Assembly (NCBI RefSeq): GCF_006717075.1 | Contig: NZ_VFQC01000001.1 | Coordinates: forward strand, 2,589,501 to 2,653,500 | Direction: 5' to 3' | From: Haloactinospora alba | Lineage (GTDB): Bacteria; Actinomycetota; Actinomycetes; Streptosporangiales; Streptosporangiaceae | DNA length: 64,000 nt | Shown: positions 3,299 to 5,878 of the stretch, piece after piece | Layout: every line of letters begins with the position of its first letter | Numbering within the stretch: position 1 is the stretch's first letter | Position numbers and translations under genes: made by a program | The notes under the pieces: model-generated | What the model was told of the DNA's origin: nothing | Seen by the model: only the letters and a program-made list of their open reading frames with translations | The model's database searches: none

Positions 3299-4306
3299 CT
3301 ACCCGCCGCCCAGGCCGAACTCGCCGGCGAGCAGTTCCAGGCTGTGCCGCCGTGCGGCGCTGTCGGGCATGGGGGTGGCGATGACCACCTCGTCGGCGTG
3401 GGCCTGGGTCGCCACGGCACGGATGCCTCCGGCGACCTCACCCGGTTCGCCCACGAACATCCGGTCGGCCATGGCCCGCCGGATCGCCCGGTAGCGGGAG
3501 GTGGTCCGGAACTCCCGCGCCTCCGCCAACGGGGTCGGGGTGGTCTCCCCGGAACGCAGTTTCGTCATGGTCAGCGACCAGAACGCGGCGAAGTCCTCGG
3601 CGAGGTCCGCGTCCTCGCTCGCGAAGGCGATCACGGAGAAGCTGCTGTAGGGGGTGCTCAGCCGGGTGGAGGGCTGGAACGAGTCCCGGTAGCGCCGCAG
3701 CAGCGGCACGGCGTAGTCCGGGTTGATCTGCTGCGCGAAGGAGAACGGCAGCCCGTGCTCCGCGGCGTAGCCCGCCCCGTTGTCGCTGGAGCCCAGCATC
3801 CACACCCGGGGTGGTTGGGGCACCTCGGGTGTGGCGGCCACCCGGGCGAAGCGGTGGTCCGCGGGAAGGTCACCGTCCAGGAACCCGAACAGGTCCGCCG
3901 CCAGGGCGGCGAAGTCCACGTTGGCCACCGCCTCCCGGGACCCCCGCAACGCCATGGCGGTGACGCCGTCCGTTCCCGGGGCCCGCCCGAGTCCCAGGTC
4001 GATGCGGCCGGGGAACATCGCCTCCAGGGTGTTGAACAGTTCGGCCACCCGCAGCGGGGCGTGGTTGGGCAGCATGATCCCGCCCGCGCCGACCCTGATC
4101 CGGGACGTGGCCGCGGCGACCCGGCCGATGATCAGCTCCGGGGCGGTGCAGGCCATCCCTGCCGCGTTGTGGTGCTCGGAGAACCACACCCGGCCGTAGC
4201 CCAGCCGCTCGGCGAGCTGGGCGGACTCCACCACCTCGGTCAGCGCCTGGTGGGCGCTGGTCCCGGGAGGGTTGAGGACGTAGTCGAGGATCGAGACGTT
4301 GAGCAT
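3299..4306 (-). CDS. LLM class flavin-dependent oxidoreductase (bacterial luciferase-like)
   Basis: Predicted FMNH2- or F420-dependent monooxygenase/oxidoreductase of 335 residues with the luciferase TIM barrel; substrate unknown. It shows the family's N-terminal LNVSILDYV strand, LAERLGYGRVWFSEHHN, the IRVGAGGIMLPNHAPL segment and GRIDLGLGRAPG, a pattern close to the MsnO8-like subgroup. A longer reading frame extends 22 codons upstream, but the ATG used here has GGAG six bases before it, so I prefer it. It stands alone, downstream of the DUF6504 gene on the same strand. Confidence 0.85.
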   Translation of the reverse strand: MLNVSILDYVLNPPGTSAHQALTEVVESAQLAERLGYGRVWFSEHHNAAGMACTAPELIIGRVAAATSRIRVGAGGIMLPNHAPLRVAELFNTLEAMFPGRIDLGLGRAPGTDGVTAMALRGSREAVANVDFAALAADLFGFLDGDLPADHRFARVAATPEVPQPPRVWMLGSSDNGAGYAAEHGLPFSFAQQINPDYAVPLLRRYRDSFQPSTRLSTPYSSFSVIAFASEDADLAEDFAAFWSLTMTKLRSGETTPTPLAEAREFRTTSRYRAIRRAMADRMFVGEPGEVAGGIRAVATQAHADEVVIATPMPDSAARRHSLELLAGEFGLGGG

Positions 4307-4421
4307 GGCAACTCCGCGAGTGTGGGAGGCGGTCTCCTGCTGTCTACCAAAACACGGTTTCCCGGGCGGCACGGGCCCGCGTTCAGGGGCCCGTGCTCCG
4401 TTCCCCCGGGAACGGGCAGCG

Positions 4422-4691
4422 TCAGCACCGAACCCGTGCCACGTGCCACTGGCCGCTCGGCTTCTCGTGCCTCAGTTCGTAGATCCCCCGCGAGGTGTCC
4501 GAGCCCGCCTCCACACGCCAGTGCACCCGCCCCGGAGGCTGCTCGTGTGTCGCCGGGTCCCAGTCGGAACGCAGCGTCACCCAGTAGTCGACGACCCGAC
4601 GGACCGTGTACATCCGCCCTCGCCAGGTAAAACGCACCGGACGCCCCTCCTGCTCACTCACGCTGATCGGCACGTCGCAGAACTCTCCCAC
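4422..4691 (-). CDS. DUF6504 family protein, probable SOS-regulated gene
   Basis: Small protein of 89 residues with the core ISVSEQEGRPVRFTWRGRMY and VDYWVTLRSDWD typical of actinobacterial DUF6504; biochemical function unknown. From memory, relatives often sit beside the damage-inducible polymerase genes dnaE2/imuB, which would suit the LexA-type box found in this promoter. The frame is open to 4799, but GTG at 4691 has GGGGAGGGG eight bases upstream and matches where the conserved domain begins. The extra N-terminal codons would run through the promoter, so the short form is preferred. Confidence 0.7.
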   Translation of the reverse strand: MGEFCDVPISVSEQEGRPVRFTWRGRMYTVRRVVDYWVTLRSDWDPATHEQPPGRVHWRVEAGSDTSRGIYELRHEKPSGQWHVARVRC

Positions 4692-4747
4692 CTGCCGGAC
4701 CCCTCCCCGGAGGCTTCCACCGTGCTGCCACGACGAACCCTCCGAAC

Positions 4748-4792
4748 TCGAACGCGTATTCGAATTATAGTCGAACCTATGTACGAGACCAA
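4748..4792 (-). promoter_or_regulatory. Promoter with overlapping LexA/SOS box for the DUF6504 gene
   Basis: On the minus strand a -35 TTGGTC (4792-4787), a 17-bp spacer and a perfect -10 TATAAT (4769-4764) are followed directly by TCGAAC-GCGT-ATTCGA (4748-4763). The last matches the actinobacterial SOS consensus TCGAAC-N4-GTTCGA at 11 of 12 defined bases. A repressor bound there would cover the expected start point. The -10 and the box are read directly; LexA binding is inferred. Confidence 0.68.
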
Positions 4793-4912
4793 CCGGCACC
4801 GTCGTGTCCCCAGGAACAGCGCGCCGCGGCGCGCCCTGCCCGCGAACCGATAGCCTCCCCTGGTGACGGCCGCCACAGCGGCCACCAACCGGCCCAGCTA
4901 AGGAGTTCGCGC

Positions 4913-5878
4913 ATGCGCGCCATCCGCATCGAGGAACAGGGCGGACCCGAGGTGTTGCGCCTCGCCGACGTAGCCGACCCGCAGCCCGGCCCCGGCGACG
5001 TGGTCGTCGACGTCGAGGCCCGCGGCGTCAACTTCATCGACATCTACCAGCGCAGCGGCGCCTACAGCATGCCCCTGCCGTTCACTCCCGGTGTGGAGGG
5101 GGCGGGAACGGTGTCCGAGGTCGGTTCGGAGGTGACCGGAATATCGGTCGGCCAGCGCGTCGCCTGGGCGATGCTCCCCGGCGCCGACGCGGAGCGCGCC
5201 GTCGTTCCCGCCGACCGGACCGTGCCGGTACCCGACGGTGTCAGCACGGAGCAGGCCGCCGCCGTCCTGCTGCAGGGGCTCACCGCCCACTACCTGACCC
5301 ACTCCACCCACCCGGTCCAGCCCGGCGACACGGTCCTGGTGCACGCGGCCGCCGGTGGGACGGGGCTGCTGATCACCCAGCTCGCCAAACTGCGCGGCGC
5401 ACGCGTCCTGGGGACGGTGTCCACCGAGGCCAAGGCGGAGCTCGCCCGCAGCGCGGGGGCCGACGACATCATCCGCTACACCCGCGACGACGTCACCGAG
5501 TCCGTGCGCAGGCTGACCGACGGTGCCGGAGTGGCCGCCGTGTACGACGGTGTGGGGGCGGACACGTTCGACGCGAGCCTGGCGAGTCTGCGCCCGCGCG
5601 GCACGCTCGCGCTGTTCGGCCAGTCCAGCGGCCCGGTCCCCCCGGTCGACCCGCAGCGCCTCAACAGCGCCGGTTCGGTCTTCCTCACCCGGCCGAGCCT
5701 GGGCCACTACGTCGCCGGCCGCGACGAGCTGCTGGAGCGCGCGGGTGACGTGTTGGGGCGGGTCGCCGCGGGGCAGCTGGACGTCCGTGTGGGCGAACGC
5801 TACCCGTGGACCGAGGTGGCCCGGGCCCACGAGGCACTCGCCGGACGCGGGACGGCCGGCAAGCTGCTACTCGTCTGA
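4913..5878 (+). CDS. NADPH:quinone oxidoreductase (zinc-free MDR family, zeta-crystallin type)
   Basis: 321-residue medium-chain dehydrogenase/reductase lacking the zinc-ligand cysteines, as in QOR/zeta-crystallin enzymes that reduce quinones with NADPH in the cytosol. It begins MRAIRIEEQGGPEVLRLADV, has GVEGAGTVSEVG for the GroES-like domain, and HAAAGGTGLLITQLAKLRGA as the nucleotide-binding Rossmann loop at about 144-164. AAGGAG lies seven bases before the ATG. The gene converges with the SPFH gene, leaving only 8 bp between the stop codons. Confidence 0.9.
   Translation: MRAIRIEEQGGPEVLRLADVADPQPGPGDVVVDVEARGVNFIDIYQRSGAYSMPLPFTPGVEGAGTVSEVGSEVTGISVGQRVAWAMLPGADAERAVVPADRTVPVPDGVSTEQAAAVLLQGLTAHYLTHSTHPVQPGDTVLVHAAAGGTGLLITQLAKLRGARVLGTVSTEAKAELARSAGADDIIRYTRDDVTESVRRLTDGAGVAAVYDGVGADTFDASLASLRPRGTLALFGQSSGPVPPVDPQRLNSAGSVFLTRPSLGHYVAGRDELLERAGDVLGRVAAGQLDVRVGERYPWTEVARAHEALAGRGTAGKLLLV

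Follow-up and report, generated by a model that had tools for sequence, protein, structure and literature searches.

The ImuB-C superfamily, which has standalone members in SOS operons, was described by Aravind and colleagues (PMC3765255) and was taken further in PMC6511836 and PMC12926913. PMC12926913 reports DnaE2-[ImuB-C] complexes, a putative mutasome, in Actinobacteria only, and in its AlphaFold models ImuB-C is a beta-barrel that has no close relative in the PDB and touches ImuA and the PHP domain of DnaE2. The mycobacterial ImuA'-ImuB-DnaE2 mutasome is damage-inducible (PMC10421592), and its ImuB bears the ImuB-C region (PMC6511836, PMC12926913). LexA control of a standalone ImuB-C is of a known kind, as the imuB-C-dnaE2 cassettes of Deinococcus are reported to be under RecA/LexA control (PMC8072749); the known SOS-controlled standalone imuB-C lies in an operon with lexA, imuY and dnaE2. 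The Streptomyces venezuelae dnaE2 promoter, as reported in PMC9380542, carries the actinobacterial LexA motif as two bound boxes at one SOS promoter. Here we analyze a gene of the protein family DUF6504, together with its promoter, in a stretch of 64,000 nt from Haloactinospora alba (GCF_006717075.1, NZ_VFQC01000001.1, positions 2,589,501 to 2,653,500; the whole stretch is called the window). We consider it likely that a LexA-repressed SOS promoter drives a free-standing ImuB-C protein whose partner genes dnaE2 and imuB appear to have been lost and which probably serves another polymerase.

The locus shares its predicted protein superfamily with the DnaE2-[ImuB-C] system and its LexA motif with S. 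venezuelae, but it differs from each described system. Whereas dnaE2 lies downstream of DUF6504 at most loci sampled in other families of the class (33/38), no dnaE2 was found in the genome of H. alba, which carries two ImuB-C genes alone. The available part of PMC12926913 describes neither LexA boxes nor leader RNA of such genes. Where the known operon joins imuB-C to lexA, imuY and dnaE2, the gene here has a promoter of its own with two operators, and no translesion partner gene adjoins it. In S. venezuelae the boxes precede dnaE2 itself, and DUF6504 is not named in the available part of that report (PMC9380542); relative to the mycobacterial mutasome of PMC10421592, neither ImuB nor DnaE2 was found in the genome.

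The promoter and the gene consist of the following features, given in the order of transcription.

4787..4792, minus strand: -35-like hexamer TTGGTC, weak, 3/6 to TTGACA
4771..4786, minus strand: LexA-type operator 1, TCGTACATAGGTTCGA, inside the 17-bp spacer, 1 mismatch
4764..4769, minus strand: -10 element TATAAT, read directly in the sequence
4748..4763, minus strand: LexA-type operator 2, TCGAATACGCGTTCGA, directly downstream of the -10 element, 1 mismatch
4692..4747, minus strand: leader of 56 bases with the Shine-Dalgarno stretch CGGGGAGGGG at 4709..4700
4422..4691, minus strand: DUF6504 gene including the stop codon, likely GTG start at 4691, 89 aa, free-standing ImuB-C domain by homology

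TATAAT lies between two boxes, each of which departs from the LexA-type consensus TCGAAC-N4-GTTCGA at one of the 12 specified positions that were scored. Read on the plus strand, the box at 4748-4763 is TCGAAC-GCGT-ATTCGA and that at 4771-4786 is TCGAAC-CTAT-GTACGA; the latter occupies all but one base of the 17-bp spacer (4786..4770, minus strand) between TTGGTC and TATAAT. An earlier note on this DNA had described the -10 element, the 17-bp spacer and the box TCGAAC-N4-ATTCGA immediately downstream, all of which are read in the sequence; the box at 4771-4786 had been overlooked and extends that observation. The two boxes start 23 bp apart, a distance of about two helical turns that would put both operators on the same face of the DNA, and operator 2 would cover the transcription start as placed from the -10 element. 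The GTG at 4691 is taken as the start codon because of the Shine-Dalgarno stretch at 4709..4700.

These two boxes are the only sites with at most one mismatch in the 64 kb. A second-order Markov null gave 0.38 such sites per 64 kb (maximum 2), and none of 200 null sequences contained two of them within 12-40 bp. A single LexA and a single RecA are encoded in the genome; lexA is preceded by two one-mismatch boxes and recA by one, which lies 1 bp before TATGCT, so by mismatch count the boxes of the window match those of lexA and recA in quality. Two perfect palindromes are listed genome-wide. One precedes the second DUF6504 gene, 12 bp ahead of its GTG; the other (C2:257448) was rejected as a LexA promoter site, as it sits within a TetR-type coding frame. 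Chance palindromes within a promoter under other control would agree with the weak -35 hexamer and with the abundance of sites with at most two mismatches, 488 per strand against 119 for the reversed pattern, and because of this abundance weak sites alone mean little. The pair was nevertheless absent from all 200 nulls, a perfect box precedes the second DUF6504 gene, and the box is kept at orthologues, as described below; we rejected a chance origin and regard it as highly improbable.

The box was sought from -350 to +20 of the domain start, and control stretches of equal size were taken from the same loci. The sample of the taxonomic family of H. alba (hereafter the family) comprised 132 DUF6504 loci of 103 genomes, 130 from profile-match rows and two added; the sample of other families comprised 38 loci of 38 genomes, hand-picked from 120 other-family genomes of the class with a DUF6504 match. 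In the family the best box had 0, 1, 2 or 3 mismatches at 22, 49, 51 and 10 loci, so that 122 of 132 have a box with at most two, and in the other families 36 loci had a perfect box and two had one mismatch (38/38), although the loci are not independent, as they include sister species and both copies from one genome. Control stretches contained such a box in 6/129 downstream and 1/99 upstream cases in the family (7/228), and in 1/38 and 0/37 cases, respectively, elsewhere (1/75). The check by which the earlier note's proposal could have failed, conservation of the box ahead of DUF6504 genes, thus came out in its favor. With the palindromes at the promoter, the box kept at orthologues and boxed lexA and recA genes, its interpretation that the DUF6504 gene belongs to the SOS regulon is supported; we infer LexA binding and damage induction from sequence, and membership of the regulon is a reading of the same kind.

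Tandem boxes, each with at most two mismatches, lie 22-23 bp apart at 11 of the 170 loci, all within the family, and none of the 170 has such a pair at any other spacing between 16 and 40 bp. The double operator of the window would therefore be a recurring design. A TAnnnT hexamer ends 0-1 bp before the box in 17/17 named orthologues of Nocardiopsis and Streptomonospora (chance about 0.0014 per locus). Among 139 loci (122 of the family and the 17 named orthologues, in part from identical genomes) TAnnnT starts at offset -6 from the box in 44, at +7, inside the box, in 55, and at +16, directly after it, in 25. At 30 loci no more than 16 bp separate the box from the start codon, and 24 of these have TAnnnT directly after the box; at 22 of the 30 the start codon lies 12 bp past the box, that is 6 bp past such a hexamer, and this distance points to leaderless mRNA at these short-leader loci. 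At L024:8247-8558 and in second copies of Nocardiopsis-type genomes (for example L158, L173 and L175), DUF6504 is divergent to a TetR gene; these second copies have their start codon 12 bp past the box, many with TAnnnT between, and are probably leaderless. A gammaproteobacterial tblastn match of 35 residues (L244) was rejected, since it spans two other genes and has no box with at most two mismatches.

The earlier note had treated the product as an unknown protein, a description that can be improved, as the sequence comparisons place DUF6504 in the ImuB-C superfamily. The window protein matches PF20114 (DUF6504) with 47.9 bits (cut-off 24.2), its frame is intact, and it retains family motifs such as RFTWRGR and HWRVEA. 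We compared eight ImuB proteins from plasmid imuA-imuB-dnaE2 cassettes, and PF20114 matched the C-terminal end of five of them (E 5e-5 to 0.008, below the curated cut-off). A profile-profile comparison of DUF6504 with the ImuB C-terminus gave 76% probability and E 2e-5 over 50 columns. The AlphaFold2 model of the window protein (pLDDT 86.8) has six strands and no helix, and W82 is nearly invariant. The protein thus shows the features that PMC3765255 gives for ImuB-C, mainly beta-structure and a conserved C-terminal tryptophan, and its model agrees in kind with the predicted ImuB-C models of PMC12926913. A search of solved structures by sequence gave E 0.82 at best, Foldseek of the model against the PDB gave nothing at E 0.001 or less, and the best VIA-align result (Z 6.5, cystatin/affimer-like folds) was within the range of unrelated models. 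NCBIfam has no name for the DUF6504 protein.

At other loci dnaE2 is the usual neighbor. It lies downstream on the same strand at 33 of the 38 other-family loci and, among the 129 family loci that offered 700 nt or more of downstream DNA, at 47. Between DUF6504 and dnaE2, 11 of the 38 have a called gene that belongs to one cluster, whose one tested member is a SAV_6107-type HEPN gene; L187:5514-5975 is an example. The earlier note had named a frequent neighborhood to imuB and dnaE2, of which the dnaE2 part stands while imuB was not seen beside DUF6504, and in the genome of H. alba the neighborhood does not hold. In this genome (4.94 Mb) a single DnaE was found, 28.7-31.4% identical to DnaE2 queries over long alignments, compared with 41-50% for DnaE2 of two Nocardiopsis-type genomes, and no dnaE2 was found. 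No imuB was found either (imuA was not searched for), and the single Y-family protein, with 176 bits to IMS, is taken as DinB because the compared ImuB proteins score 26-42 bits or nothing. The gene of the window thus appears to be an orphan ImuB-C gene under predicted LexA control, with dnaE2 and imuB lost. As both were apparently lost and ImuB-C was kept in two copies, the protein most likely serves another polymerase. A single DnaE is encoded by 25 of 110 genomes in the family, of which 22 retain DUF6504 and three do not. In each of the 22, one copy or more follows a box that has no more than two mismatches (the best box has 0, 1 or 2 mismatches in 7, 9 and 6 genomes), and 13 of them have two copies. 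Since the single-DnaE genomes group by genus, the 22 are not independent losses.

A gene kept without dnaE2 could also mean that ImuB-C alone is a sensor of damaged DNA which recruits repair proteins and is not a polymerase subunit, as proposed by Aravind and colleagues. The nearly invariant aromatic and basic residues of the family would suit such a sensor, and standalone ImuB-C is also reported next to other repair genes in the absence of translesion polymerases (PMC3765255). The position of dnaE2 downstream of DUF6504 at 33 of the 38 other-family loci speaks for a polymerase partner, however, and we consider a sensor rather unlikely.

The preferred explanation, a LexA-repressed promoter for a polymerase accessory protein, would work as follows. 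With LexA bound to operator 1 within the spacer and to operator 2 over the expected start, RNA polymerase would be barred from TATAAT, and after DNA damage the RecA-stimulated self-cleavage of LexA would free the promoter. The product would be a small beta-structured accessory part, which in other genomes forms one end of ImuB or has its own gene right before dnaE2, and it would probably act as a small subunit of a translesion complex. Candidate partners, as a guess, are the sole DnaE or the Y-family polymerase taken as DinB.

The promoters in other families may be under a further control. The RecA-NDp motif, tTGTCRgtg-8 nt-TannnT as given in PMC5656591, closely precedes the LexA box in 18/38 other-family promoters as against 5/760 control stretches when up to two mismatches are allowed; L188, L191 and L219 show it directly before the box. 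This suggests joint activation by PafBC and repression by LexA of DUF6504-dnaE2 in these families, a combination that PMC8223512 reports for recA and several other mycobacterial genes. The motif was present at 1/122 loci in the family. In the window, the best stretch for the pattern tTGTCRgtg-N8-TAnnnT within 4601-4900 on the minus strand was a misplaced one with four mismatches, and a PafBC site was therefore rejected.

Many relatives of H. alba carry a second conserved element in the leader. CTTCCCC follows the box in 83 of 122 family leaders, mostly as the loop of a short hairpin, and the combination of box and CTTCCCC also occurs before other genes, as in the following examples.

L072:1798-1823: hairpin soon after the LexA box
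L089:4950-4975: hairpin soon after the LexA box
L289:6193-6231, minus strand: box and CTTCCCC before dnaE2 in a Nocardiopsis-type genome, stem paired at 4/6 positions
L290:1146-1174: box and CTTCCCC before dnaE2 in a second Nocardiopsis-type genome, stem paired at 4/6 positions
L288:1411-1442: box and CTTCCCC before imuA' (NF058630), stem paired at 6/6 positions
L287:1362-1392: box and CTTCCCC before imuA' (NF058630), stem paired at 6/6 positions

The hairpin counts are restricted to the 83 leaders with CTTCCCC; identical 26-base stretches were counted once, and the short-leader second copy L172 was removed by hand. A stem of at least 5 bp is possible in 71 of 75 unique cases; swapping the arms between loci gave 48.8 on average and 60 at most. 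For covariation, 74 distinct 26-base stretches (70 from DUF6504, two from dnaE2 and two from imuA') were aligned with the loop as anchor; 85.4% of the cells pair, and 105 cells are changed on both sides. Covariation scores 0.667, compared with 0.242 for shuffles and no more than 0.181 after sliding. Although all six pairs show a double change, this count is no better than chance, since 56 of 500 shuffles reach six; the other measures do exceed chance. The loop is complementary over at least 5 nt to the 30 nt before the start in 71/81 leaders versus 85/292 neighboring genes, a comparison tilted toward pairing of the loop with the Shine-Dalgarno region, since the control genes begin at the first possible codon and the leader starts were chosen by a script that favors a Shine-Dalgarno sequence. 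In 110 family genomes the pattern of box and CTTCCCC has 76 matches (two places are matched twice), 68 of them at DUF6504, and the reversed control has one. The other eight comprise two before dnaE2 at a separate locus, two before imuA' (one NF058630 frame over the cut-off, the other truncated and below it), one at L291 and three without a named gene, among them L266. At L291:761-796 (genome G437) box and CTTCCCC persist, no DUF6504 follows, and the neighbors look like those of intact loci. Outside the family, 25 of 348 genomes yield 26 matches; one of these falls at a DUF6504 locus (G361), and the others are unsorted by gene. Rfam gave no match at gathering on 15 loci. The long leaders of L186, L187, L198, L202, L205, L206, L207 and L221 contain GTGGGGAAGC and then CTTCCCC downstream; a similar sequence seems to recur within some DUF6504 coding regions (protein QRAWGE in L198, L202 and L205). 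The leader of the window, read directly, has no CTTCCCC, its own fold is not significant (z-score -1.25), and the pattern of box and CTTCCCC has no match in its genome.

The missing hairpin would fit a regulatory relic, in which LexA control is real and the partnerless ImuB-C protein has been drifting toward loss since dnaE2 was lost. The three single-DnaE genomes without DUF6504 agree with this, and so does G437, which encodes two DnaE and has box and CTTCCCC left at L291 between the apparent usual neighbors with no DUF6504. Against drift stand the boxed gene in 22 of 25 single-DnaE genomes, 13 of them with two copies, and the intact frame of the window gene with its retained RFTWRGR and HWRVEA motifs, and we consider a relic improbable.

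The explanation by a LexA-repressed promoter for an accessory protein of another polymerase has several points to face. The -35 hexamer is poor, and a sigma-70 consensus scan of 4200-5000 reported no promoter; for both reasons the description as a textbook repressible promoter was too strong, although the core of -10 element and operators is good. Ten of the 132 family loci have a three-mismatch site at best. The ImuB matches to PF20114 all fall under Pfam's cut-off, and three betaproteobacterial ImuB of the eight gave no match. The Y-family gene sits elsewhere in the genome, away from DUF6504, and the partner is a guess. With the genome 98.65% complete, a dnaE2 or imuB may have been overlooked. 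All these weigh against the explanation, and we still consider it the likely one.

The closest named relatives found for the window protein are from Streptomonospora and Nocardiopsis, with at most 60% identity, and its only plasmid-record match is from Nonomuraea. The gene is flanked by a divergent quinone-oxidoreductase-like gene (4913-5878) and, downstream, by a luciferase-like monooxygenase gene. Our open-access searches found no literature on DUF6504 by name, on Nocardiopsis with LexA and the SOS response, or on such a leader hairpin, the last judged mostly from titles and abstract starts. As far as these searches show, three things are new, namely the box before nearly all sampled actinobacterial DUF6504 genes, the leader hairpin, and the combination of a double operator with an apparently orphan gene.

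We tentatively propose, as an idea with less than even chances, that the translesion parts of the family (ImuB-C, DnaE2 and ImuA') form a two-layer regulon, in which LexA and a conserved leader hairpin, whose CUUCCCC loop can pair with the Shine-Dalgarno sequence, would let the proteins be made only when damage coincides with a second, translational condition. H. alba would be an offshoot without hairpin or DnaE2 and with a second operator, whose ImuB-C may be a free SOS-induced subunit modifying another polymerase.

DUF6504, so far an unnamed family, gains a probable role, and a response to DNA damage is predicted for it throughout a class of bacteria. The analysis also points to genomes apparently lacking DnaE2 in which ImuB-C, a little-understood component of mutasomes, can be investigated; deleting its gene there would be a direct test of whether it is a subunit of DnaE2, works with other polymerases or senses damage. 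In the relatives, the leader hairpin would add to the control of mutagenic repair a layer that is new and still lacks an explanation.
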